A DNA stretch of 36,967 bases from Ramlibacter sp. (GTDB taxonomy: Bacteria > Pseudomonadota > Gammaproteobacteria > Burkholderiales > Burkholderiaceae_C), in contig JAQGMU010000381.1 in assembly GCA_028292195.1 (NCBI GenBank), positions 1 through 36,967 of the forward strand, in the 5' to 3' direction. Position numbers and translations under genes: made by a program. Under the pieces are notes generated by a model that saw only the letters and a program-made list of their open reading frames with translations, was not told the origin of the DNA and did not search any database. This document shows, one piece after another, positions 11,958-31,421 of the stretch; the stretch's first letter is position 1, and the number at the start of each line of letters is the position of its first letter.

Positions 11958-12926
11958 ATGCGCACACGCCTGCTCTTCGTTTCGCTCGTCTTCGCGGCGC
12001 TGTTCGCGCCCTTGCAGGACGCCTTCGCGGCTTGGCCCGACAAGCCCATCCGCATGATCGTGCCCTCGGCGCCCGGCGGCGCCCCCGACGTGCTGATGCG
12101 CGCGCTGACGGTGCAGTTGTCGCAGCAGCTCGGCGTGCCGATCGTCATCGACAACAAGCCCGGGGCCTCGTACATCATCGGCACCACCGAGGTGGTGCGC
12201 GCACCGGCGGACGGCTACACGCTGGCCTACGGCAACATCGTGTCGCTCGCCACCAACCGTTCGCTGCTGCCCAACGTGCCGTACGACGTCGACAAGGACC
12301 TGACGCTGGTGTCCGGCACCTGGCGCCTGTCCAACATCATGGTGGTCAGCAACACGCTGCCGGTGAAGACCGTGCCGGAGCTGATCGCCTACGCCAAGAA
12401 GAACCCCGGCAAGGTCGCCTTCGCCTCCGACGGCAACGGCACCACGGCCCATCTCGGGTTCGAGCTGTTCAAGACCATGACCGGCACCGACATGCTGCAC
12501 GTTCCCTACAAGGCGGTAACGGCGGCGATCACGGACCTGATGAGCGGTGGCGTGCAGGTGTTGATGGTCAATGCGCCGGTGGTGGCTCCGCACCTCGACG
12601 CCGGCCGCATCCGCGCCCTGGGCATCTCGTCGGCGCAGCGTTCGCCGTTCTACCCCGCCATGCCCACCATCGCCGAAGCCGTGCCGGGCTTCGAGATCGT
12701 TTCCTGGGGCGGCATCATCGGCCCGGCCCACCTGCCGCCGGAGATCGTGGCGCGCCTGAACACCGAGCTGCGCAAGGCCCTGGCAACGCCGGCCGTGCAG
12801 GAGCGCTTCAAGGCGCTCGGGGCGGAGGCGATGCCGAGCACGCCGGAGGAATTCCGGCAACTCTCCCGCCACGAAACCGAGAAGTGGGCGAAGGTGGTCA
12901 AGATCTCCGGCGCCAAGATCGACTGA
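11958..12926 (+). CDS. Bug/TctC-family tripartite tricarboxylate-type substrate-binding protein
   Basis: MRTRLLFVSLVFAALFAPLQDAFAAWPDKPIRMIVPSAPGGAPDVLMRALTVQLSQQLGVPIVIDNKPGASYIIGTTEVVRAPADGYTL. Confidence 0.92.
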   Translation: MRTRLLFVSLVFAALFAPLQDAFAAWPDKPIRMIVPSAPGGAPDVLMRALTVQLSQQLGVPIVIDNKPGASYIIGTTEVVRAPADGYTLAYGNIVSLATNRSLLPNVPYDVDKDLTLVSGTWRLSNIMVVSNTLPVKTVPELIAYAKKNPGKVAFASDGNGTTAHLGFELFKTMTGTDMLHVPYKAVTAAITDLMSGGVQVLMVNAPVVAPHLDAGRIRALGISSAQRSPFYPAMPTIAEAVPGFEIVSWGGIIGPAHLPPEIVARLNTELRKALATPAVQERFKALGAEAMPSTPEEFRQLSRHETEKWAKVVKISGAKID

Positions 12927-12937
12927 AGCCGCCCGCC

Positions 12938-14053
12938 ATGAGCCCCTGGAAAGCCGCACAACCCGGCGACCCGCTCAGCAGGGTCGACACCCCCGCGCTG
13001 GTGCTGGACCTCGACGCCTTCGAACGCAACCTGCAGCGCATGGCCGATGCGGTGCGCGGCAGCAAGGTGCGGCTGCGCGCGCACGCCAAGAGCCACAAGT
13101 GCCCCGAGATCGCGCGCCGGCAGCTGGCGCTGGGCGCGACGGGCATCTGCTGCCAGAAGGTCAGCGAAGCGGCCGTTTTCGTGGACGCCGGCGTCGAGGA
13201 CATCCTGATCACGAACCAGGTGGTCGGCGACGCCAAGCTGGTCCGCCTGATGGCGCTGGCCAAGCGCGCCCGCATGGGCGTGCTGGTCGATCACCCGGCA
13301 CAGCTGCACGCGCTGGCCAGCGCGGCGCGGGCCGCCCAGGCTGCGCTCGACGTGTATGTCGAAGTGGACGTGGGCTCCGGCCGATGCGGCGTCCCGCCAG
13401 GGCTCGCCGCCATCCGGCTGGCGGAACTGGCGGCCGACAGCTCCCCGCTGCGCTTCGCCGGCCTGCACTGCTACCACGGCAGGGCGCAGCACCTGCGCAC
13501 CCCGGCCGAGCGCGCAGCGGCGATCACCTACGCCGTCGTGGCCGCCGCCGAGACCCGCGCGGCCATCGAGGCGCGCGGCATTCCCGTGCCCATCGTCACG
13601 GGCGCCGGCACCGGCACCTTCATGCACGAGCGCGACTCCGGCGTGTTCAACGAGATCCAGGCCGGCTCCTACATCTTCATGGACCGCGACTACGCCGACA
13701 ACCAGCGTTCGTCGCGGGACATCGTCTTCGAGCACGCGCTGTTCGTGCGCTCCACCGTCATGAGCCGGCCGTCCGCCCTGCGCGCGGTGGTCGATGCCGG
13801 CCTCAAGGCGTCCAGCGTGGACAGCGGCATGCCCGGCATCTGGCAGCGGCCCGAGCTGCGCTACCTGAAGGCGGCCGACGAACACGGCCTCATCGGCAGC
13901 GAGCAGGGCGCGGCGCCGGCGCTGGGCGAAACCCTGATGCTGATCCCCGGGCATTGCGACCCGACCGTGAATCTCTACGACGAGCTGGTGTGCTACCGCG
14001 GCGAGACGGTCGAGGCCGTCTGGCCCATCGCCGCCCGCGGCGCCCTGCTCTGA
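12938..14053 (+). CDS. Fold-III PLP enzyme, D-threonine/D-3-hydroxyaspartate aldolase-like
   Basis: MSPWKAAQPGDPLSRVDTPALVLDLDAFERNLQRMADAVRGSKVRLRAHAKSHKCPEIARRQL...; PLP Lys in HAKSHK; C-terminal metal motif GHCDPTVNLYDEL (H339, D341). Confidence 0.85.
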   Translation: MSPWKAAQPGDPLSRVDTPALVLDLDAFERNLQRMADAVRGSKVRLRAHAKSHKCPEIARRQLALGATGICCQKVSEAAVFVDAGVEDILITNQVVGDAKLVRLMALAKRARMGVLVDHPAQLHALASAARAAQAALDVYVEVDVGSGRCGVPPGLAAIRLAELAADSSPLRFAGLHCYHGRAQHLRTPAERAAAITYAVVAAAETRAAIEARGIPVPIVTGAGTGTFMHERDSGVFNEIQAGSYIFMDRDYADNQRSSRDIVFEHALFVRSTVMSRPSALRAVVDAGLKASSVDSGMPGIWQRPELRYLKAADEHGLIGSEQGAAPALGETLMLIPGHCDPTVNLYDELVCYRGETVEAVWPIAARGALL

Positions 14054-14073
14054 CGCTTCAATCCACACCAACC

Positions 14074-15534
14074 ATGCAAGACACTTTCGACATCCTTGTC
14101 CGCAACGCCGAAATCGTCGACGGCACGGGCGCCCCGCGCTTCGCCGGCGACATCGGCATCAGCGGTGACCGCATCGCGCGCATCGGCGACCTGGCCGGCC
14201 GCAGCGGCCGCACCGAGATCGACCTCGGCGGACGCATCGCCGCGCCGGGCTTCATCGACGCCCACACCCACGACGACCGCCTGCTGCTCTCCGGTGGCGA
14301 CATGGCCCCCAAGGTGAGCCAGGGCGTGACCACGGTCATCGGCGGCAACTGCGGCATCTCGATGGCGCCGATGCCGCGCGCCATCCCGCAGCCGGTCACG
14401 CCGCCGCTCAACCTGCTGGACGACCAGGGCGGCTGGTTCCGCTTCCGCGATTTCGCTTCCTACCTGCAGGCCGTGCGCGCCCAGCCCGCCGCCACCAACT
14501 GCGCGATGCTGGTCGGCCACACCACGCTGCGGGTGGCCACACTGGACGACCTCGAGCGTCCCGCCACCACGGCCCAGATTGCGCAGATGCGCGCGCTGGT
14601 GCAGGAGGCGATGGAAGCCGGCGCCATCGGCGTCTCCACCGGCCTGTTCTACGAGCCCGCGGTGGCGGCGCCGACCGAGGAGGTGATCGAGACCTGCCGG
14701 CCGCTGAAGGACTTCGGCGGCCTGTACTGCACCCACATGCGCGACGAGGCCGACCACGTCATCACCTCGCTCGAAGAGACCTTCCGCATCGGCCGCGAGG
14801 TCGGGGTGCCGGTGGTGATCTCGCACCACAAGGTGGTCGGCCAGGCCAACTACGGCCGCTCGGAAGAGACGCTCGCCTTCATCCGCCGCAACATGGCGCT
14901 GCAGCCGATCTGCCTGGACTGCTATCCCTACACCGCCGGTTCCACCGTGCTGTCGGCCGACCGCGCCGCCACTTCCACCCGCGTCATCGTCAGCTGGTCG
15001 AAGGCCCTGCCGCAGTTTGCCGGCCGCGACCTGGACGCCATCGCGCGTGAGCTCGGCGTGCCGCAGGACGAGGCGATCCGCCGCCTCGATCCGGCCGGCG
15101 CGATCTACTTCCGCATGGACGAGGCCGACGTCCAGCGCATCCTGCAGTTCGACGAGACCATGATCGGCTCCGACGGCCTGCCGCACGACGCCTCGCCGCA
15201 TCCGCGCCTGTGGGGCAGCTTCCCGCGCGTGCTGGGCCACTACGGCCGCGGCCTCGGCCTGTTCCCGCTGGAGACCGCGGTGCACAAGATGACCGGCCTG
15301 ACGGCGAAGAACTTCGGCCTGGCCGACCGCGGCGTGCTGAAGGAAGGCGCCTATGCCGATCTCTGCCTGTTCGACGCCGACACGGTCGACGAGGCCGCCA
15401 GCTACGCGGCGCCGATCGCGGCGGCGCGCGGCATCGACACCGTGGTGGTCAACGGCGCGGTGGTCTGGCGCGAGGGGCGCAGCACCGGCGCCCGCCCGGG
15501 CCAGGTGCTGCGCCGCCAGGCCGGAGGCCATTGA
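14074..15534 (+). CDS. N-acyl-D-amino-acid deacylase (D-aminoacylase family)
   Basis: MQDTFDILVRNAEIVDGTGAPRFAGDIGISGDRIARIGDL...PGFIDAHTHDDRLLL...GSDGLPHDASPHPRLWGSFPRVLGHYGRGLGLFPLETAVHKMTGLTAKNFGLADRG. Confidence 0.9.
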   Translation: MQDTFDILVRNAEIVDGTGAPRFAGDIGISGDRIARIGDLAGRSGRTEIDLGGRIAAPGFIDAHTHDDRLLLSGGDMAPKVSQGVTTVIGGNCGISMAPMPRAIPQPVTPPLNLLDDQGGWFRFRDFASYLQAVRAQPAATNCAMLVGHTTLRVATLDDLERPATTAQIAQMRALVQEAMEAGAIGVSTGLFYEPAVAAPTEEVIETCRPLKDFGGLYCTHMRDEADHVITSLEETFRIGREVGVPVVISHHKVVGQANYGRSEETLAFIRRNMALQPICLDCYPYTAGSTVLSADRAATSTRVIVSWSKALPQFAGRDLDAIARELGVPQDEAIRRLDPAGAIYFRMDEADVQRILQFDETMIGSDGLPHDASPHPRLWGSFPRVLGHYGRGLGLFPLETAVHKMTGLTAKNFGLADRGVLKEGAYADLCLFDADTVDEAASYAAPIAAARGIDTVVVNGAVVWREGRSTGARPGQVLRRQAGGH

Positions 15535-15535
15535 G

Positions 15536-16669
15536 ATGACGAGCACCCTCGAAGGGATGGAAACGCCGGCCCTGCTGCTCGACGAAGCGCGCATGGACCG
15601 GAACATCGAACGCATGCGCAAGCAGGTGCAGCGGCTGGGCGTCGCCTTCCGCCCGCACGTCAAGACCAGCAAGTGCATCGAGGTCGCGCGCCGCATGATG
15701 GGCAGCTGGGAAGGGCCCATCACCGTGTCGACCCTGCTGGAGGCCGACTACTTCGCCGGCCGCGGCGTCAAGGACATCCTGTACGCCGTCTGCATCGCAC
15801 CGAACAAGCTGGACCACGTGCTGGCGCTGCAGGCGCGGGGCGTGCGCATGTCCATCATCCTGGACAGCGTGGACGCAGCACAGATGGTCGTCGAGCGGCT
15901 GGCCGACGCGCCCGACATCGGCGTGCTGATCGAGGTGGATTCGGACGGCCACCGCTCCGGCGTCAAGCCGGATTCGGCCGAGCTGCTGCGGATCGGCCTG
16001 ACGCTGGAGGCCAGCGGCATCGCGGTGCGCGGCGTGATGACGCACGCCGGGAGCTCCTACGACTGCCGCAGCGCCGACGCGATCCGCGCCATGGCGGAAC
16101 AGGAACGCACGGCCATCGTGCTGGCCGCCGAGCGGCTGCGGGCGGCGGGCATCGCCTGCCCCGTGGTCAGCCTGGGCTCCACGCCGACGGGGCTGTATGC
16201 AGAGCACCTGGAGGGCGTGACCGAGCTGCGGGCCGGGGTCTATGTCTTCTTCGACCTCGTCATGGCCGGCCTCGGCGTCTGCGCGGTCGACGACATCGCG
16301 CTGTCGGTTCTGGCCACCGTCATCGGCCACCAGCGCGAGAAGGGCTGGACGCTGCTGGATGCCGGCTGGATGGCGATGTCGCGCGATCGCGGCACGGCCA
16401 GCCAGCCGGTGGACCAGGGGTACGGCCTCGTCTGCGACCTCGAGGGCCGGCCGCTGCGGGACTACATCCTGGTCGGCGCCAACCAGGAGCACGGCATCAT
16501 GGCGGCGCGGCCAGGCAGCGGCGCCGATGGGCTGCACCTGCCGATCGGCACGCAGGTGCGGATCCTGCCGAATCACGCCTGTTCCACCGCGGCGCAGTAC
16601 GGCGAATACCACGTGGTGGCGCCGCCCCTCCAGCTGAAGGCGACCTGGCAGCGCTTCAGCGGCTGGTAG
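15536..16669 (+). CDS. Fold-III PLP enzyme, DSD1/D-threonine aldolase family; D-serine- or D-3-hydroxyaspartate-dehydratase-like metal motif
   Basis: MTSTLEGMETPALLLDEARMDRNIERMRKQVQRLGVAFRPHVKTSKCIEVARRM...; C-terminal PNHACSTAAQYGEYHVV (H347, C349). Confidence 0.82.
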   Translation: MTSTLEGMETPALLLDEARMDRNIERMRKQVQRLGVAFRPHVKTSKCIEVARRMMGSWEGPITVSTLLEADYFAGRGVKDILYAVCIAPNKLDHVLALQARGVRMSIILDSVDAAQMVVERLADAPDIGVLIEVDSDGHRSGVKPDSAELLRIGLTLEASGIAVRGVMTHAGSSYDCRSADAIRAMAEQERTAIVLAAERLRAAGIACPVVSLGSTPTGLYAEHLEGVTELRAGVYVFFDLVMAGLGVCAVDDIALSVLATVIGHQREKGWTLLDAGWMAMSRDRGTASQPVDQGYGLVCDLEGRPLRDYILVGANQEHGIMAARPGSGADGLHLPIGTQVRILPNHACSTAAQYGEYHVVAPPLQLKATWQRFSGW

Positions 16670-16678
16670 GAAGTCCCC

Positions 16679-17647
16679 ATGCTCATACTTTCCGAAGAAC
16701 ATGCGCGGGCGCTGGTCAAGGCCTCCGACGCGATCGGCGTCATCGAGGAAACCTTCGCCGCCATGGCGCGCGGCCAGGCCCGCAACTACCCGGTGGTGCG
16801 GGAGGTGGTGGGCTACCAGGACGCCGTGTTCGGGGTCAAGACCGGAGCCGACTGCGCCCAGCCGCTGCTGGGCCTGAAGGCCGGCGGCTACTGGCCGCAC
16901 AATGCGGCCAAGGGGCTGGGCAACCACCAGTCGGGCACCTTGCTGTTCGACCCGGAGACCGGGCGCGCCAAGGCGCTGGTCAGCGCGAACTACCTGACGG
17001 GCGTTCGCACCGGCGCGGCCAGCGCGATTGCCGCCAAACACCTGTCCCGCGCGGACAGCACCGTGCTGGGCATGGTGGGCACCGGCGTCCAGGCCACGTA
17101 CCAGCTGCAGGCGATGCTGGCCGTGCGGACCATCCGGCGGGTGCGCGCATGGGACCCGCAGGCGGACAGCCTGCGCGCCTTCGGCCGCATCGTGACGCAA
17201 CTGGGGCTGGCGTTCGAGCCGCAGCCCGGCCCGCGCCAGGTGGCGGAGGAGGCGGACGTGCTGGTCACCGTCACGCCCTCGCAGCAGCCGCTGATCGAAC
17301 ACGGGTGGCTGCGTCCCGGCGCCCATGTCTGCGCGATGGGCGCGGACACCAAGGGCAAGCAGGAGCTGGCCACCGAAGTCGTGGCGAAGGCGGCGGTGTT
17401 CGTGGACGAGCCGGGCCAGGCGATCTCGATCGGCGAGTGCCAGCATGCGTTCGGCGCCGGGCTGCTCACGCTGGCCGGCCTGCGCACGCTTGGCGACGTG
17501 GTGGCCGGCAAGTGCGCCGGCCGCCAGTCCGAACAAGAGATCACCCTGTTCGACGGCACCGGTGTCGCCCTGCAGGACCTGGCGGTGGCGGAACTGGCGG
17601 TGCGGCTGGCCACGCGCCATGGAGTCGGAGCCAAGGTACAGTTCTAG
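16679..17647 (+). CDS. Ornithine cyclodeaminase/mu-crystallin family protein (possible imine reductase)
   Basis: MLILSEEHARALVKASDAIGVIEETFAAMARGQ...FGVKTGADCAQPLLGLKAGGYWPHNAAKGLGNHQSGTLLFDPETGRAKALVSANYLTGVRTGAASAIAAKHLSRADSTVLGMVGTGVQATYQLQAM; Rossmann GTGVQA. Confidence 0.88.
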   Translation: MLILSEEHARALVKASDAIGVIEETFAAMARGQARNYPVVREVVGYQDAVFGVKTGADCAQPLLGLKAGGYWPHNAAKGLGNHQSGTLLFDPETGRAKALVSANYLTGVRTGAASAIAAKHLSRADSTVLGMVGTGVQATYQLQAMLAVRTIRRVRAWDPQADSLRAFGRIVTQLGLAFEPQPGPRQVAEEADVLVTVTPSQQPLIEHGWLRPGAHVCAMGADTKGKQELATEVVAKAAVFVDEPGQAISIGECQHAFGAGLLTLAGLRTLGDVVAGKCAGRQSEQEITLFDGTGVALQDLAVAELAVRLATRHGVGAKVQF

Positions 17648-17648
17648 G

Positions 17649-18572
17649 ATGCCCAACGACGGGACGGACCTGCGTTTTTTCATCGCCATCACCGAGGCCG
17701 GTTCGCTGGCCGAGGCGGCGCGGCGCATGGACGTGACGCCCTCCGCCGTGTCGCAGCACCTGCGCCAGCTGGAAAAGCGCCTCGGGCTGCACCTGGTCCA
17801 CCGCAGCACGCGCCGCTTCAAGCTCACCGACGAAGGCGAGCTGTTCTACGCCGGCGCGCTCGGCGTGCTGGCGCAAATGGACCACCTCATCGACGACCTG
17901 CGCGCCCGCTCCGGTGAAGTCGCAGGCAAGCTGGACGTCTGCGGGCCGCTCGGCTTCGGGCGGCGCTACCTGGCGGCGGCCGTCGCCGAATTCCATGCGC
18001 TGCATCCCAAGCTGCTGGTGTCGCTGAACCTCACGGACATCATGCCGGCGTCCAACGCGCAGCGCTTCGACCTGACGGTCCACATCGGCCACCTCTCGGA
18101 CTCCAGCCTGGTGGCGTACCCGATCGCGCCGAACGCGCGCTACCTCTGCGCCGCGCCGCAATACCTGGCGCGCTGCCCGCCGCTGCTGAAGCCGGACGAC
18201 CTGGCCAGCCACGACTGCCTGGTGCTGCGCGAGAACCAGGAAGACGTGACGCTCTGGCGGCTGCGCAAGAACCGGACGGAAGTGAGCGTGCGCGTGCCAC
18301 CGGTGCTGTGCAGCAACGACGGCGACGTGGTGAAGCAATGGGCGCTGATGGGCAAGGGCATCATGCTGCGTTCCGAGTGGGACGTCGCGGACCACCTGCG
18401 CGCCGGCCGCCTGGCGCGCGTGCTGGCCGACTGGCAATTGCCCGACGCCGACGTGGTGGCCCTGGCCGGCCAGCGCGACAACATGTCGGCGCGGGTCCGG
18501 CTGTTCCTGTCGTTCCTGCAGGAACGCTTCCAGCCGGCGCCGCCCTGGCGCCCGCCAGCGGCCCCGGCCTAG
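17649..18572 (+). CDS. LysR-family transcriptional regulator
   Basis: MPNDGTDLRFFIAITEAGSLAEAARRMDVTPSAVSQHLRQLEKRLGLHLVHRSTRRFKLTDEGE; starts 1 nt after the upstream stop codon. Confidence 0.92.
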   Translation: MPNDGTDLRFFIAITEAGSLAEAARRMDVTPSAVSQHLRQLEKRLGLHLVHRSTRRFKLTDEGELFYAGALGVLAQMDHLIDDLRARSGEVAGKLDVCGPLGFGRRYLAAAVAEFHALHPKLLVSLNLTDIMPASNAQRFDLTVHIGHLSDSSLVAYPIAPNARYLCAAPQYLARCPPLLKPDDLASHDCLVLRENQEDVTLWRLRKNRTEVSVRVPPVLCSNDGDVVKQWALMGKGIMLRSEWDVADHLRAGRLARVLADWQLPDADVVALAGQRDNMSARVRLFLSFLQERFQPAPPWRPPAAPA

Positions 18573-22633: not shown

Positions 22634-24043
22634 CTACTTCCAGTCGACCGCGCCGAAGTGGTCGTGCCCCAGCAGCGTGTAGAAGATGCCGAAGGTGCCC
22701 CGTGACTGCCCCCGGTTGCCGATGTCCGGATAATTCGCATCCCGCCGGTTCCACAGGTACTTCACCGTGATGGCATGCTGGTCCTTCACCCGCCACGTGT
22801 AGGCGATGTCGGCGCGCGCGATGTTGTCGTGGCCGCCGCGGTTGCCGACGTCCGACACGAAGTATTCGCGCAGGGTGAGGTCCAGCGAGGAGCGGTCGCG
22901 GAAGATCGCCCGCGCCGCCAGCAGCGCCTGCGGCGCCACGCCATAGTGGTAGTCACGGTCCACGCTGGGGGCGGCGCTGTTGATGGTGCCGACGGCGGCA
23001 TAGCCCAGCCCCGCCATCGCGGTGCCCTGCACCACCACGTCGTCGTGGCGCCACTGGCCGGTGGTGCCCAGCGACAGCGCGGTGCTGGAGATGCGGAAGG
23101 TCTGCGGAGAGATGTAGTCGTAGCTGCCGTAAATGCCCCAGATGCCGCGGTAGTTGGGGCCATTCTTGTAGTCGCGCCCGGCCAGCAGGCCGCGCGTCAT
23201 CAGGCTCTCGACGAAGTTGGCGGTCGTCGCCGTCGCCTGGAAGGCGAAGTAGTCGAAGGGGCGGCGGTACTGGTAGCCGTCCTTGCCCGGCATGCCGTAG
23301 TCGAGCGCGAAGTCGGCCTGCGCTTCGTTGCGGACGTTGGCGGCCGAATTGCCCTGGGCGTTCTGCACGGTGCCCATCAGGCCCAGCTGCAAGCGGCTGT
23401 AGTACTCGGCTCCGCGGCTGCTGAACACGGTCTCGGGCCGGTGGCCTTGCAGGTAGCGGTTGAACGCGGTGGAGGGCGAGACCACGGCTGCCACCGTTTC
23501 GCGCCAGAACGGATTCATGCCGCCGCCTTTTTCCAGCACCAGGCTGGCCATGCGGAACAGCGATTCGCCGAGGAAGGTGCCGCCGATGCCGGTGGAGACC
23601 ATGTCGTTGCGCGAAGGCGGCGTGCGCTCGCCCGCGATCTCCCACAGCGCGCTGCCGGCCACCGCATACCCGGCCGACTCCCAGAAGTTGAAGCCGGCCG
23701 AGCGCGCGAAGCCGTAGTACATGGAGCCCTGGTACGGGTGGCCGAGCTGGTTGACGCTGAACGGGTCCCTGTCCACCGTCCAGCTGCTGTGCAGGTTGTG
23801 GTTGATCGAGTCCAGCGTCACCGCGTAGTCGATACGGTCCGTGCCGCAGCAGTAGTTGATTCGGTTGACCAGCAGGTCGAAACCGATGATCTCGTACAGC
23901 GGCAGCAGGTAGTCCGGCTTCTGCGCGGGCAGGGGCGGGTCCGCCACCTGCGCTTGCGCCTGCATCGGCGCCTGAGCGAAGCTCGCTGTGGCCGCGAACA
24001 GCAACAGGAAAGCGGCAATACCACGGGTGTACGGATGGGCCAT
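22634..24043 (-). CDS. DUF3943-like outer-membrane-associated protein of unknown function
   Basis: Signal peptide MAHPYTRGIAAFLLLFAATASFAQA; KPDYLLPLYEIIGFDLLVNRINYCCG...NHNLHSSWTVDRDPFSVNQLGHPYQGSMYYGFARSAGFNFWESAGYAVAGSALWEIAGE. Confidence 0.72.
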   Translation of the reverse strand: MAHPYTRGIAAFLLLFAATASFAQAPMQAQAQVADPPLPAQKPDYLLPLYEIIGFDLLVNRINYCCGTDRIDYAVTLDSINHNLHSSWTVDRDPFSVNQLGHPYQGSMYYGFARSAGFNFWESAGYAVAGSALWEIAGERTPPSRNDMVSTGIGGTFLGESLFRMASLVLEKGGGMNPFWRETVAAVVSPSTAFNRYLQGHRPETVFSSRGAEYYSRLQLGLMGTVQNAQGNSAANVRNEAQADFALDYGMPGKDGYQYRRPFDYFAFQATATTANFVESLMTRGLLAGRDYKNGPNYRGIWGIYGSYDYISPQTFRISSTALSLGTTGQWRHDDVVVQGTAMAGLGYAAVGTINSAAPSVDRDYHYGVAPQALLAARAIFRDRSSLDLTLREYFVSDVGNRGGHDNIARADIAYTWRVKDQHAITVKYLWNRRDANYPDIGNRGQSRGTFGIFYTLLGHDHFGAVDWK

Positions 24044-26007: not shown

Positions 26008-27246
26008 ATGAACCAACAGGCGACCGCGCCGGGGTGGCAACCCCTCAAAGGCCTCCGCGTGCTGGAGCTCGCGCAGATCATGGCCGGGCCGGTGGCCGGG
26101 CTGATGCTGGCCGACCTCGGTGCCGACGTGATCAAGGTCGAGAAATTTCCGGGCGGCGACGATGCCCGCGGCTTCAACAGCAAGGGCGCCGGCGACATGC
26201 CGGCCTCGTTCGAGGTGCTCAATCGCGGCAAGCGCTCGGTCGCCATCAACCTGAAGACCGATCAGGGCCGTGAATCGCTGAGCCGCATGGTCGCCCAGGC
26301 CGACGTGCTGACGGAGAACTTCCGCCCCGGCACGCTCGAAGGCCTCGGGCTGGGCGTCAGGCAAATGCTGGAGATCAACCCGCGCCTGATCTATTGCAGC
26401 GTCAGTGGCTACGGCAGCCGCGGCCCGCTGGCCGAGCGCGGCGGCTTCGACCTGATCCTGCAGGCCTTCAGCGGCCTGATCAGCGTCACCGGCGAACCGG
26501 GGCGGCCGCCGGTGAAGCCGGGGGTCTCCATCGCGGACGTCAATGCCGGCATCCTGGCGGCCATGGGCGTGCTCGGCGCCTATATCCACGTGCTGCGCAC
26601 GGGGCAGGGCCAGCACGTCGAAACCTCGTTGCTGCAAGCCTCGATCCAGCAGCTGTACTGGTATGCGGCGCTGTTCTTCTCGGGCGGAGCCATGCCGGAC
26701 CGCCTGGGCACGGCGCACCCCGTCATCGCGCCCTACCAGACCTTCCAGTGCTCCGACGGCGAGATCGCGATAGGTGGCGCCAACGAAGCGAACTGGGTGC
26801 GGATCGCCGAAGTGCTGGGCCATCCGGAGTGGCGCAGCGACCCGCGCTTCACGACGCCGCTGCAGCGGCTGCAGAATCGCGAAGCGCTCACGGTCTGCCT
26901 GAACGCGGCGCTTGCCGGCCACACGCGGGCCGAGTGGGAAGCGCGTCTCAGCGCCGCCGGCGTCCCGGCCGGGCCGGTGCAGTCGGTGGGCGAGGCGCTG
27001 TCGCATCCGCAGGCGCGGGCGATGGACATCGTTGTCGATGCCGATACCGCCGATGGCGGCCGCCGGCCCATGATCGGGCTGCCGCTGCACTTCAGCGGGC
27101 GCAACGCGCCGGCGACCACGGCCGCGCCGCGACTGGGCGAACACACGCGCGAGGTGCTGGCCGAGTTCGGCTTCGCCGGCGCGGAAATCGATGCATTGCT
27201 GGAGCGGCACGCGGTGCTGCAACAATCACCGGAAGGAAAAAAATGA
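26008..27246 (+). CDS. CaiB/BaiF (family III) CoA transferase
   Basis: PLKGLRVLELAQIMAGPVAGLMLADLGADVIKVEKFPGGDDARGFNSKGAGDMPASFEVLNRGKRSVAINLKTDQGRE...LLQASIQQLYWYAA. Confidence 0.92.
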   Translation: MNQQATAPGWQPLKGLRVLELAQIMAGPVAGLMLADLGADVIKVEKFPGGDDARGFNSKGAGDMPASFEVLNRGKRSVAINLKTDQGRESLSRMVAQADVLTENFRPGTLEGLGLGVRQMLEINPRLIYCSVSGYGSRGPLAERGGFDLILQAFSGLISVTGEPGRPPVKPGVSIADVNAGILAAMGVLGAYIHVLRTGQGQHVETSLLQASIQQLYWYAALFFSGGAMPDRLGTAHPVIAPYQTFQCSDGEIAIGGANEANWVRIAEVLGHPEWRSDPRFTTPLQRLQNREALTVCLNAALAGHTRAEWEARLSAAGVPAGPVQSVGEALSHPQARAMDIVVDADTADGGRRPMIGLPLHFSGRNAPATTAAPRLGEHTREVLAEFGFAGAEIDALLERHAVLQQSPEGKK

Positions 27247-28733
27247 GCAAGCCGCCCGAATCCAGTCTGTCCGTGCTGCGCGATACCGTGGTGCCGATCG
27301 AGATGATGCTGGCCACGGCCGCCAAGGTGCTGTGTTCGGCGGTGTTCGTCTCGGGTCGCGATCCCGAAGAGGCCTTCAGGCACAGCGCGCTCTGGTCGCT
27401 CAAGGCGCAGCTGCTGCCCGACGCGCTGCTGCAGCACGCGCGCTGGAACCTCGACCGCAAGGATCCGCGCGTCGACATCTCCATAGCTCTCACGCCGGCC
27501 GCGGCCGACGACCTGATCGCCGCGCATCGCGCCGCCCATCCGGGCTTCGCGGCAGACTGGGACAGCGAACGGGCGCGGCTGATCGGCCTGCGCAGCATCA
27601 CGCGCTCGGCGCAGTTCACCGGCGCCGGCCAGGGCAGCATCATCGTTCCGCGCGATGGCGACCGCGCGCTGCATTTCGAGCCCCGTGAAATCAGGCGCGG
27701 GCCGCTCGCCAGCGCGGGCTGGTCGGCCCAGGGCGCAGCGGCGCCGGCCGACGCGAACACGCGCGCAGCCGTGGCCCGGGCGCTCGAAGCGCCCTTTGCC
27801 GATCGCGAGGCTTACCACGCCGCCGTGCTGGTGGTGCAGCGTGGCCAGATCGTCGGCGAGCGCTACGCTGCCGGCTTCAACGCCGACATGCCGCTGGAAA
27901 GCTGGTCGATGGGCAAGAGCGTCATGGGCACGCTGATCTCCCAGCTGATGGGCCGCGGCGCGCTGGAACTCGACGCCCGCGCGCCGATCGCCGCCTGGGA
28001 CCGGGCCGGCGACCCGCGCCGCGAGATCACGCTGCGGCATCTGCTGAACATGTCCAGCGGCCTGCGCTGCACCGGCCAGGACGACACGCGCCCGGCCTGG
28101 CGCTACGGCCTGCCGGAACACTTCCTGCCCTATGCCGAGGCGCTGAACATCTCGGAGTGGGCCACCGAGCGGCCGCTCGAATTCGCGCCCAACACCGTCG
28201 GGCGGTATCGCAACTGCGATCCGCTCAGCCTGGCTTCGATCTTCTACGACACCGTGCGCAAGCTGGGCGGCGATCCGCTCACCTGGCCGCAGGCCGAGTT
28301 CTTCGACAAGCTCGGCATGCGCGGCCTGGTGCTGGAGACCGACCGCTGGGGCCGCTTCATCGTCAGCGGCTTCGACTACGGCACGGCACGCGACTGGGCC
28401 CGCATCGGCCTGTTGTACCTGCGAGACGGCATGTGGGATGGCCAGCGCGTGCTGCCGGCCGGCTGGGTGGAGTTCGCGCGGACCGCGGCGCCGGCCTGGA
28501 AGAACCGCGAATACAGCGCCCAGATCTGGCTGAACAGCATCAACGAGATCGCGTTGCCGCCCGACACCTTCTACTTCGCCGGCGGCGGCGGCCAGTACGT
28601 CTTCGTGGTTCCTTCGCTGGACCTGGTGATCGTGCGCCAGGGCCACACGCGCGGCTGGGAAGGCCAGCGCGAGAAGGTCAACGCCATGCTGAAGGGCATC
28701 ACCGCGGCGCTGGCGGCCAAGGTCGCCCAATGA
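27243..28733 (+). CDS. Serine hydrolase, beta-lactamase/6-aminohexanoate-dimer-hydrolase-like fold
   Basis: SxxK motif in ESWSMGKSVMGTLISQLMGRGALELDARAPI (S222, K225); YRN at Y322; HLLNMSSGLRC; C-terminal FAGGGGQYVFVVPSLDLVIVRQGHT. Confidence 0.87.
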   Translation: MSKPPESSLSVLRDTVVPIEMMLATAAKVLCSAVFVSGRDPEEAFRHSALWSLKAQLLPDALLQHARWNLDRKDPRVDISIALTPAAADDLIAAHRAAHPGFAADWDSERARLIGLRSITRSAQFTGAGQGSIIVPRDGDRALHFEPREIRRGPLASAGWSAQGAAAPADANTRAAVARALEAPFADREAYHAAVLVVQRGQIVGERYAAGFNADMPLESWSMGKSVMGTLISQLMGRGALELDARAPIAAWDRAGDPRREITLRHLLNMSSGLRCTGQDDTRPAWRYGLPEHFLPYAEALNISEWATERPLEFAPNTVGRYRNCDPLSLASIFYDTVRKLGGDPLTWPQAEFFDKLGMRGLVLETDRWGRFIVSGFDYGTARDWARIGLLYLRDGMWDGQRVLPAGWVEFARTAAPAWKNREYSAQIWLNSINEIALPPDTFYFAGGGGQYVFVVPSLDLVIVRQGHTRGWEGQREKVNAMLKGITAALAAKVAQ

Positions 28734-29851
28734 GCGGCTGCTTTCCGCCGCCGGGCGAGTGGGCGCGGGTCGAGCCGGCCGCGGCCGGGATGTCGGCGCA
28801 GGGGCTGGACGACGCCGCCGGCTTCGCGCAGGCGCACGACTCGCAGTGGCCGACGAGCCTGTACCTGCCCGACGGCCGCTACATCGGCACCGCTTATGTC
28901 GGCGACAAGCCGCCGCACGACCAGCCGATCGGCCCGGTGCGCCCGCGTGGCGGCCCGGCCGGGGTCGTGCTGCGCGGCGGCCGCATGGCGGCGCAATGGG
29001 GCGATATCGCGCGGCCCGATACCACCTACTCGGCCGCCAAGAGCTATGTCGCGCTGATGGCGGGCATTGCCCTGGACGACGGGTTGATCCGCTCGCTCGA
29101 CGACAAGGTGGCCGACTACGCGCAGGACGACGGCTTTGCCAGCGGGCACAACCGCGCCATCACGTGGCGCCACCTGCTGCAGCAGACCAGCGAATGGCAG
29201 GGCGAGCTGTGGGGCAAGCCCGACAGCGTGGACCACAACCGGCAGGCCGGCTCGCACAACGCCGACAACAGCCGCAAGGGCACGCTGCGCGAACTCGAGG
29301 CGCCCGGCACGCGCTGGGAATACAACGACGTGCGGGTCAACCGCCTCGCCTGCTCATTGACCCAGCTGTTTCGCCGCTCGCTGGCCGACGTGCTGCGCGA
29401 GCGCATCCTGGAGCCGATCGGCGCTTCGGCAAACTGGGAATGGCGCGGCTACGACAACGCGCGCCTGCATTTCGACGGCCGCCAGGTGGAATCGGTGTCC
29501 GGCGGCGGCCACTGGGGCGGGGGCCTGTTCATCTCGGCCCAGGACCATGCGCGTGTCGGCCTGCTGGTGGCGCGCGGCGGCGAGTGGGCCGGCCGCCAAT
29601 TGATCTCGCGCACGTACCTGGCGCAGATGACGGCGCCGTCGGCCGTGAATCCGCAGTACGGCTTCATGTGGTGGCTCAATACCGGCCGCCAGCTCTTTCC
29701 CTCGGTCCCGGCCGACGGGGTGTTCGCACTCGGCGGCGGCCAGCACATGGTGTGGGTCGCGCCCTCGCTCGACCTCGTGGCCGTGCTGCGCTGGGTCGAC
29801 AAGCCGCATTGCGACGCGCTGCTCGGGCGCATCGCCGCCGCCTGCCGATGA
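28730..29851 (+). CDS. Serine hydrolase, beta-lactamase-like fold (second, divergent)
   Basis: TYSAAKSYVALMAGIALDDGLIRSLDDKVADY (S101, K104); HLLQQTSEWQGELWG; EYNDVRVNR (Y198); FALGGGQHMVWVAPSLDLVAVLRW. Confidence 0.87.
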   Translation: MSGCFPPPGEWARVEPAAAGMSAQGLDDAAGFAQAHDSQWPTSLYLPDGRYIGTAYVGDKPPHDQPIGPVRPRGGPAGVVLRGGRMAAQWGDIARPDTTYSAAKSYVALMAGIALDDGLIRSLDDKVADYAQDDGFASGHNRAITWRHLLQQTSEWQGELWGKPDSVDHNRQAGSHNADNSRKGTLRELEAPGTRWEYNDVRVNRLACSLTQLFRRSLADVLRERILEPIGASANWEWRGYDNARLHFDGRQVESVSGGGHWGGGLFISAQDHARVGLLVARGGEWAGRQLISRTYLAQMTAPSAVNPQYGFMWWLNTGRQLFPSVPADGVFALGGGQHMVWVAPSLDLVAVLRWVDKPHCDALLGRIAAACR

Positions 29852-29891: not shown

Positions 29892-31421
29892 ATGACCAGC
29901 AGAAGAACCTTCCACCGCATCGCATTGGCCAGCGCGGCCACCGCCATGGGGGGGCCGGTGTTGGCGCAGCCCAAGCCGAAGACGGGCGGCGTCCTCACCT
30001 ATGCGGCCGGTTCCGCCACGCAGACGCTCGATCCGCAGTTCATCACCGACGTGACGACCTTCCGCGGCGTCGGCGCCATGTACGAGGCGCTGACCCGGCA
30101 GGACGAGAACGGCAAGGTCGGCCCCGGCCTGGCGCTGTCGTGGACGATCTCGCCGGACAAGCGCACCTGGACCTTCAAGCTGCGCCCCGGCGTGAGCTTC
30201 CACGACGGCACACCCTTCAATGCGCAGGCCGTCAAGTTCACCTACGACCGCATCCTGAACCCCGCTACCGGCTCGCCGCGGCGCAGCACGCTGGAGATGG
30301 TGGAGTCGACCGCCGTGGTCGACGACCTGACCTTCCGCCTGACGACCAGGGAGCCGTTCGCGCCGCTGCTGGCGCAACTGAGCGCCTACAACGTCTACAT
30401 CCTGAGTCCCTCCCACGTCACGAAGGAAGGCGCGAATTTCAGCAAGACCGCCTCCGGCACCGGGCCCTTCAAGCTGCAAGCCTGGCAGCCGGGCGAAAAG
30501 CTGGTGGTGGTGCGCAACGACAAGTACTGGGGCGAAAAGCCCAGGCTCGACTCGGTGGTGTTCAGCGTGGTGCCCGAGGATTCCGCGCGCACCCTGCTGC
30601 TCCTGAGCGGCCAGGCCGATGCGATCTCCGAACTGCCGTACGTGATGGTCAAGAAGCTGGGGTCGCTGGATGCGGTGCGCGTGCTGCGCAAGCCCGGCTA
30701 CCGCACCATCTACCTCGGCATGAACCTCTCGGTGCCGCCGTTCAACGACCTGCGCGTGCGCCAGGCCGTCGGCTACGCGATCAACAAGCCGGCGTTGGTG
30801 CAGGGCGTGCTGAGCGGCATCGGCACGCTCGGCGGCTCGCTGGAATCGTCGGTGATCGAAGGCACGGCCAAGGAGCTGCAGCCCCATCCGTACGACCCGG
30901 TCAAGGCGAGGAAGCTGCTGGCCGAAGCGGGCTTGCCGAACGGCTTCACGACCGACTTCATGGTCCCCACCGGCCGCTACAACATGGACCGGCAGGTGGG
31001 CGAGGCGATCCAGGGCCAGCTCGCGACGGTCGGCATCAAGGTCAACATCCAGTCGCCGGAATTCGGGGCCTACCTGGCGGCGCTGAACAAGGGCAAGGTG
31101 CCCATGTTCCTGAGTGGCAAGGGCAGCCCGACCGGCGACATGGACTTCACCCAGGCGCTGTTGAACAGCAGCACGGGGAAGATGAACTACTTCAACTTCA
31201 AGAACCCCGAGGTCGACCGCCTGATCCAGCAGCAGCGCGTGGCCATCGACCCGAAGGAACGCGCTCGCCTGCTGTCGGAGTTGCAGACCAAGGTGTACCA
31301 GGAGGAGCCGCACATCACCCTCTATTACGAGGACCAGGTGTGGGCCACGCGCGCCAACGTGCATGACGTCAAGGTGTACGTGAACGAGTTCGTCGACTTC
31401 AGCAAGGCCTGGAAGGCATGA
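29892..31421 (+). CDS. Peptide/nickel-type ABC transporter substrate-binding protein (DppA/OppA family)
   Basis: Tat-like signal TSRRTFHRIALASAATAMG; LSWTISPDKRTWTFKLRPGVSFHDGTPFNAQAVKFTYDRIL. Confidence 0.93.
   Translation: MTSRRTFHRIALASAATAMGGPVLAQPKPKTGGVLTYAAGSATQTLDPQFITDVTTFRGVGAMYEALTRQDENGKVGPGLALSWTISPDKRTWTFKLRPGVSFHDGTPFNAQAVKFTYDRILNPATGSPRRSTLEMVESTAVVDDLTFRLTTREPFAPLLAQLSAYNVYILSPSHVTKEGANFSKTASGTGPFKLQAWQPGEKLVVVRNDKYWGEKPRLDSVVFSVVPEDSARTLLLLSGQADAISELPYVMVKKLGSLDAVRVLRKPGYRTIYLGMNLSVPPFNDLRVRQAVGYAINKPALVQGVLSGIGTLGGSLESSVIEGTAKELQPHPYDPVKARKLLAEAGLPNGFTTDFMVPTGRYNMDRQVGEAIQGQLATVGIKVNIQSPEFGAYLAALNKGKVPMFLSGKGSPTGDMDFTQALLNSSTGKMNYFNFKNPEVDRLIQQQRVAIDPKERARLLSELQTKVYQEEPHITLYYEDQVWATRANVHDVKVYVNEFVDFSKAWKA

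Follow-up and report, generated by a model that had tools for sequence, protein, structure and literature searches.

A rare Burkholderiales gene cluster with a candidate role in N-acyl-D-3-hydroxyaspartate catabolism

Introduction

What substrate would call for two different fold III pyridoxal phosphate (PLP) enzymes, an N-acyl-D-amino-acid deacylase and a protein of the ornithine cyclodeaminase (OCD) family, all encoded side by side? The question is raised by four genes in a 36,967-nt stretch of Ramlibacter sp. DNA (contig JAQGMU010000381.1; the window), which encode a D-threonine-aldolase-like protein (the aldolase), the deacylase (the acylase), a DSD-type enzyme (the dehydratase) and the OCD protein. 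A preliminary description had proposed that these enzymes deacylate an N-acyl-D-beta-hydroxyamino acid and then either cleave it or dehydrate it to an imine that the OCD protein reduces, as a D-configured analogue of the beta-hydroxyaspartate cycle (BHAC). The BHAC is reportedly carried out by BhcABCD in Paracoccus denitrificans, in work said to be that of Schada von Borzyskowski in 2019.

The cluster combines known kinds of enzymes in a new way. From sequence comparisons, we give an even chance to the reading that it is a catabolic operon for N-acyl-D-3-hydroxyaspartate, and we compare this reading with four rivals as the evidence on each is presented.

Conservation of the gene cluster

Gene content, conservation, phylogeny and residue signatures were observed directly. 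The OCD protein was the query in a scan of 84,980 species genomes that returned 22 loci. In seven of these (L035 to L041), genes for a Bug periplasmic binding protein, the aldolase, the acylase, the dehydratase, the OCD protein and a LysR regulator lie within about 10–12 kb, and the cluster proteins are 67–82% identical to the window's. All seven are metagenome-assembled genomes (MAGs): Rhodoferax (L035), Burkholderiales (L036) and Ramlibacter (L037 to L041). The window's gene order is kept in six, where the Bug gene adjoins the aldolase gene (L036 to L041), while in L035 an acylase paralogue, a LysR gene and a Bug gene are inserted between the aldolase and a second acylase. The cluster is thus split and its acylase duplicated in this Rhodoferax MAG, the extra paralogue (L035:2091–3530) adjoining the aldolase gene. 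LysR is present in all seven loci, and some also carry a 3-hydroxyisobutyrate-dehydrogenase-family protein, a class II aldolase or TRAP transporter parts.

A further genome from the same family and another genus (G110) encodes the acylase, dehydratase and OCD protein behind an oligopeptide ABC transporter, with the aldolase gene absent from that locus. Among 300 sampled relatives of the same family, an OCD protein with over 60% identity occurs only in G110 and in the window's own genome, a draft of 692 contigs that is 82% complete; therefore the cluster is rare. The arrangement is not a product of chance: it is a real, conserved and rare gene cluster. Co-conservation, which the preliminary description had set as a check on its proposal, was found as the full set in seven further Burkholderiales MAGs and as the three-gene form in G110. 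We refer below to nine carriers (the window's genome G000, G110 and G301 to G307).

Other loci hold parts of the set. Devosia L042, Burkholderiaceae L045 and Ciceribacter L057 each carry a BhcD-like OCD gene (54–65% identity) and a dehydratase-type gene (46–48% identity), with no D-threonine-aldolase-type gene in any of the three loci. The dehydratase-type gene adjoins MlrC-family (M81) genes in L042 and L045, and an Asp/Glu-racemase-family gene adjoins the OCD gene in L045. On the Ciceribacter plasmid L057, an unannotated record whose OCD gene is 63% identical, no full cluster and no aldolase of this type were found (best match 31%).

The OCD protein and the dehydratase

Compared to solved structures, the OCD protein matches BhcD (6rqa) by far the best, at 291 bits, with alanine dehydrogenase at 200 bits. 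We scored proteins against the NCBIfam models of the aspartate-glyoxylate aminotransferase BhcA (NF045640, cut-off 650 bits), BhcB (NF045641, 550), BhcC (NF045642, 690) and BhcD (NF045643, 500), with the Amphritea locus L049 as a positive control that exceeds all four. The OCD protein scores 398 bits with the BhcD model (596 for the control), compared to 131 bits with the ornithine cyclodeaminase model (NF005762, cut-off 350), and it does not group with ornithine cyclodeaminase proper. In the tree, the cluster OCD proteins and BhcD form one clade (support 100/100), with the cluster-like side at 96/91. Six residues (R41, E42, W72, H83, Q84 and Q255) are common to the cluster OCD proteins, to BhcD and to a third clade, of Burkholderiaceae proteins paired with the dehydratase. 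The other OCD-family proteins lack E42 and W72, seldom have R41, Q84 or Q255 (5–16%), and have H83 in about a third of cases. The protein is predicted to be an iminosuccinate reductase that yields L-aspartate.

The dehydratase is a full-length homologue of the Delftia sp. HT23 D-threo-3-hydroxyaspartate dehydratase, its closest solved structure (3wqc, 418 bits), and has the same PLP lysine (K43) and the same His/Cys metal site (motif NHAC, with H347 and C349). The Delftia protein is known as a stand-alone enzyme whose products are oxaloacetate and ammonia; the cluster dehydratase is encoded together with an imine reductase, an aldolase and an acylase. Elsewhere in the window's genome, contig C379 (L003, L133) holds a second dehydratase-type gene at 54% identity, with no OCD neighbour in its short stretch and with the expected NHAC motif not found in the translated match.

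Of 14 sampled carriers of a gene of the D-threo-3-hydroxyaspartate dehydratase type, 5 have an OCD gene of this kind next to it (4 of 13 when the window's genome is set aside). This is far more than chance would give: the probability is about 4e-10 under a rough independence model, applied to small numbers and related genomes. Further pairs occur in G176, G254, G151, Kordiimonadaceae L050 and Burkholderiaceae L045. Other members of the dehydratase's family adjoin RidA in L058, L059, L124 and L129. In none of the loci compared do OCD and RidA stand together beside one dehydratase, each locus having one, the other or neither, a pattern that would follow from a shared action on the imine. On a simple reading, RidA would help to hydrolyse the imine to a keto acid, and the OCD protein would reduce it to an L-amino acid. 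The preliminary description's sequence of dehydration and imine reduction is thus supported by the BhcD clade, the signature residues and the repeated pairing.

That the OCD protein is an ordinary ornithine cyclodeaminase, in a neighbourhood mixing unrelated D-amino-acid enzymes, is scarcely credible: the family name alone speaks for it, and the phylogeny, signature residues, conserved synteny and repeated dehydratase pairing all speak against it.

Pairs of OCD and dehydratase-type genes without an acylase or aldolase were seen at L050:8827–10954, L045:10001–12131, L083, L086, L087 and L088, the L050 OCD protein falling inside the BhcD clade. In L058:7001–8559 and L059:7001–8526, RidA directly follows the dehydratase-type gene. 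In Rhizobium L058 a four-carbon acid sugar kinase gene and two PdxA-type genes come before the dehydratase gene and hint at a four-carbon acid route.

The aldolase and the acylase

The solved structures closest to the aldolase are the D-threonine aldolases (DTAs) 7dib (384 bits) and AxDTA (4v15, 362 bits), and then BhcC (6qkb, 310 bits). With the BhcC model, it scores 397 bits in the window and 413 bits in L035, compared to 699 bits for the control. The catalytic and metal residues named for AxDTA (PMC4401734) align with conserved residues in all eight cluster aldolases (AxDTA K59, R157, H193, H347 and D349); the window's equivalents are the PLP lysine K51, R149, the base H180 and the metal ligands H339 and D341. 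By its predicted fold III, PLP lysine, catalytic histidine and metal His/Asp pair, the aldolase is a member of the DTA/BhcC superfamily. In the tree, the cluster aldolases group together in a clade (100/99) that excludes BhcC (itself 99/100) and the Burkholderiaceae DTAs, among them the window genome's second, ordinary DTA (locus L002).

Three residues, N238, S293 and K311, are identical in 8 of 8 cluster aldolases and 6 of 6 BhcC sequences, and are nearly absent from other DTAs (1, 0 and 0 of 32, respectively). We picked these columns precisely because they show this pattern in the alignment, so they serve as a lead rather than as an independent test. A sister relationship between the cluster aldolases and BhcC is left undecided by the free tree and is not rejected by the approximately unbiased test (p 0.145), so the common residues may be inherited or convergent. 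The AlphaFold model of the aldolase, built with 14 aligned sequences, is too poor for residue placement (pLDDT 71, and below 50 in the region 269–346 that contains S293 and K311). The protein may be a D-3-hydroxyaspartate aldolase yielding glycine and glyoxylate.

The acylase is closest over its full length to AfDam (1m7j, 613 bits), and its HTH, GNCG and GSDG motifs align with AfDam's, as expected of a D-aminoacylase homologue that keeps the catalytic and metal residues. Cluster acylases, AfDam and BbDam (3gip) belong to one family and have the same metal-dependent mechanism. The AfDam side-chain pocket consists of F191, M254, L298 and M346; at the 298 site, BbDam, which acts on N-acyl-D-glutamate, has Arg and OngB has Gln (PMC12017989). 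The window's pocket is F192/V255/A299/R347, numbered by PDB chain index, which is +1 relative to that paper. Thus the 346 site is Met in AfDam and Arg in the cluster acylase, while the 298 site is Arg in BbDam and Ala in the cluster acylase. Arginine occupies the 346 site in each of the eight cluster acylases that can be read at this position (window, G110, L035b and L037 to L041; L036 is masked there), compared to no Arg or Lys in 20 unlinked Burkholderiaceae homologues. The extra L035 paralogue has Lys at this site. The AlphaFold model (pLDDT 40, 8 aligned sequences) is too poor for residue placement. From the arginine, we infer that the acylase accepts a substrate with an acidic side chain, and that the charge in its pocket sits elsewhere than in the D-glutamate enzymes.

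These residues bear on two rivals. The Ong pathway of Pseudoalteromonas for GlcNAc1A (PMC9537276) has the same two-enzyme logic, deacetylation by a D-aminoacylase-fold enzyme followed by fold III PLP deamination, with a helper gene nearby; the cluster could likewise degrade an N-acetylated sugar acid such as N-acetyl-D-glucosaminate, the acylase acting as OngB and the dehydratase as OngC. The helper is RidA in Ong and an OCD reductase here, the Ong substrate is a sugar acid, and the pocket residues differ. The OngB-specific Gln298 is absent, Ala299 standing in its place (PMC12017989), the acylase is nearer to AfDam than to OngB (613 compared to 414 bits), and neither a KDG kinase nor RidA was observed in the neighbouring genes. 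We rejected an Ong pathway on the pocket residue and consider an Ong-like one very improbable.

Salvage of D-serine and D-threonine is a second rival: the acylase would free both, the aldolase would split D-threonine, the dehydratase would deaminate D-serine, and the OCD protein would reduce 2-imino acids to L-alanine or L-2-aminobutyrate. The solved relatives do include DTAs and a D-serine dehydratase, and promiscuity is common in this superfamily, OngC taking both D-serine and D-threonine (PMC9537276). However, the acylase has acidic-substrate markers, the aldolase has BhcC-type residues, the OCD protein is nearer to BhcD than to alanine dehydrogenase, and the window's genome has the separate DTA in L002. 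We judge this salvage route improbable.

Comparison with the beta-hydroxyaspartate cycle

In the nine carriers, no protein exceeds the BhcA cut-off (best at most 446 bits, compared to 724 bits in the L049 genome) or the BhcB cut-off (best at most 348 bits, control 609 bits), and apart from the control genome none of the genomes searched passes either. Authentic BHAC loci (L047, L048, L049, L051 and L052) have BhcA and BhcB next door; the cluster loci have neither beside them. A full BHAC is therefore rejected, and the lack of recognisable BhcA and BhcB genes, first noted for the window, extends to nine genomes. One of these, the window's own genome, is an incomplete draft, but all nine give the same picture. 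A Pseudorhodobacter MAG (G310) that holds a cluster-type OCD (L044) has a BhcA-like gene on contig C15 (L134; 577 bits, below the cut-off) and no recognisable BhcB (best 47 bits); it is possibly incomplete or another variant.

Both systems encode an aldolase of the DTA/BhcC kind together with a BhcD-clade imine reductase, and the cluster would share the BHAC's 3-hydroxyaspartate chemistry via iminosuccinate to L-aspartate. The cluster differs by its fold III DSD-type dehydratase in place of BhcB, by the D-aminoacylase inside its operon, and by an aldolase and OCD protein that score under the BhcC and BhcD cut-offs. The BHAC intermediate is itself D-configured (2R,3S; D-erythro) (PMC8166194), so D-configuration does not set the cluster apart; the dehydratase class, the acylase and the likely diastereomer do. 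The threo/erythro preference probably differs from that of the BHAC. Overall, the earlier interpretation holds for co-conservation, substrate class, imine reduction and the lack of BhcA and BhcB, and its framing as a D-configured analogue does not.

The main rival is a variant of the BHAC serving glyoxylate assimilation, in which the aldolase would join glycine and glyoxylate to form D-3-hydroxyaspartate, the fold III dehydratase would take the place of BhcB, the BhcD-like enzyme would produce aspartate, and an unlinked aminotransferase would stand in for BhcA. In its favour, one locus encodes all three chemical steps, the aldolase has BhcC-type residues, the OCD protein belongs to the BhcD clade, and BhcA-like proteins of 430–445 bits, below the cut-off, are found elsewhere in most carriers. 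We nevertheless consider it unlikely. The acylase has no role in such a cycle, BhcA and BhcB adjoin the authentic loci and not the cluster loci, and the G110 locus lacks the aldolase. The Delftia dehydratase accepts the D-threo and L-erythro isomers of 3-hydroxyaspartate, whereas the D-erythro isomer, which is the BHAC's intermediate, inhibits it (PMC8071972); such a cycle would thus need an aldolase that produces D-threo. The variant's chief problems are the acylase and the stereochemistry.

Proposed pathway and its significance

Independent markers appear to point to one acidic four-carbon substrate, 3-hydroxyaspartate, since the aldolase's N238/S293/K311, the acylase's arginine, the OCD clade and signature, and the dehydratase's nearest relative agree. 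The LysR regulator's best NCBIfam model, the tartrate regulator TtdR, scores 200.6 bits (cut-off 398); tartrate is the hydroxy analogue of hydroxyaspartate, and we counted this match as a further hint. The D-beta-hydroxyamino acid proposed earlier is thereby supported and narrowed.

In the proposed operon, N-acyl-D-3-hydroxyaspartate would be imported via the Bug protein or other transporters, and the D-aminoacylase would remove the acyl group, its pocket arginine holding the beta-carboxylate. The Zn/PLP fold III dehydratase would convert free D-3-hydroxyaspartate to the enamine/iminosuccinate, which the BhcD-like enzyme would reduce with NAD(P)H to L-aspartate ahead of hydrolysis to oxaloacetate and ammonia. 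As a parallel branch, the aldolase would cleave D-3-hydroxyaspartate to glycine and glyoxylate, drawing on part of the pool or on a diastereomer that the dehydratase refuses. We infer the substrate, acyl group, stereochemistry, direction and cofactor; the evidence for 3-hydroxyaspartate as the substrate is stronger than that for the direction of flux.

Several points weigh against this operon. Both the aldolase and the OCD protein miss their Bhc equivalog cut-offs. The Delftia enzyme reportedly dehydrates D-serine as well (Maeda is said to have found this in 2010), so the family name does not fix the dehydratase's substrate. The module does not require the aldolase, because G110 has the other three enzymes without it, and the aldolase branch adds partial redundancy to the pathway. 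Siderophores as the natural source of N-acyl-D-3-hydroxyaspartate would be speculation: variochelins contain beta-hydroxyaspartate, but carry the acyl group on another residue (PMC10999976).

More broadly, the cluster might represent a second natural beta-hydroxyaspartate route, acting on D-threo-3-hydroxyaspartate with a fold III dehydratase for BhcB and running as glyoxylate assimilation or N-acyl-hydroxyaspartate salvage, with the dehydratase and BhcD-like reductase forming a wider imine-saving module; we hold this tentatively and regard it as doubtful. If true, the module would recycle nitrogen as L-aspartate where RidA-linked relatives lose ammonia. Iminosuccinate reductase of the BhcD type is known from the BHAC; that its sister clade occurs with another class of dehydratase and with a deacylase suggests a more general strategy of saving an unstable imine's nitrogen. 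The cluster would give homologues of D-threonine aldolase, whose function has been called largely unknown (PMC4401734), and of D-hydroxyaspartate dehydratase a physiological role. Conversion of glyoxylate or hydroxyaspartate to L-aspartate without BhcB would have practical use in photorespiration and ethylene-glycol engineering.

Locus layout and neighbouring genes

Coordinates, gaps and Pfam families bear out the earlier account of four tightly packed, co-oriented genes between Bug and LysR; from Bug to LysR, the intergenic gaps are 11, 20, 1, 9 and 1 nt.

Table 1. Genes of the candidate operon and its flanks (window positions)
Gene product	Position	Strand	Family support
Bug/TctC periplasmic solute-binding protein, candidate uptake receptor	11958–12926	+	Pfam TctC, 220 bits
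Aldolase-type protein (D-threonine-aldolase/BhcC-type fold III PLP)	12938–14053	+	Pfam Ala_racemase_N and D-ser_dehydrat
D-aminoacylase (N-acyl-D-amino-acid deacylase), basic side-chain pocket	14074–15534	+	Pfam Amidohydro_3
DSD-type fold III PLP dehydratase	15536–16669	+	Pfam Ala_racemase_N and D-ser_dehydrat
OCD/mu-crystallin family, BhcD-like reductase	16679–17647	+	Pfam OCD_Mu_crystall
LysR-type regulator	17649–18572	+	Pfam LysR; NCBIfam TtdR (NF007315) top-scoring, below cut-off

Elsewhere in the window, a DUF3943 protein is encoded on the minus strand (22637–24043). Two adjoining serine beta-lactamase-family hydrolases (27243–29851) follow a CoA-transferase III gene and stand ahead of a peptide ABC-transporter operon with an SBP_bac_5 binding protein (29892–31421); together, these hydrolases and the transporter possibly serve the uptake and hydrolysis of amides or D-peptides.

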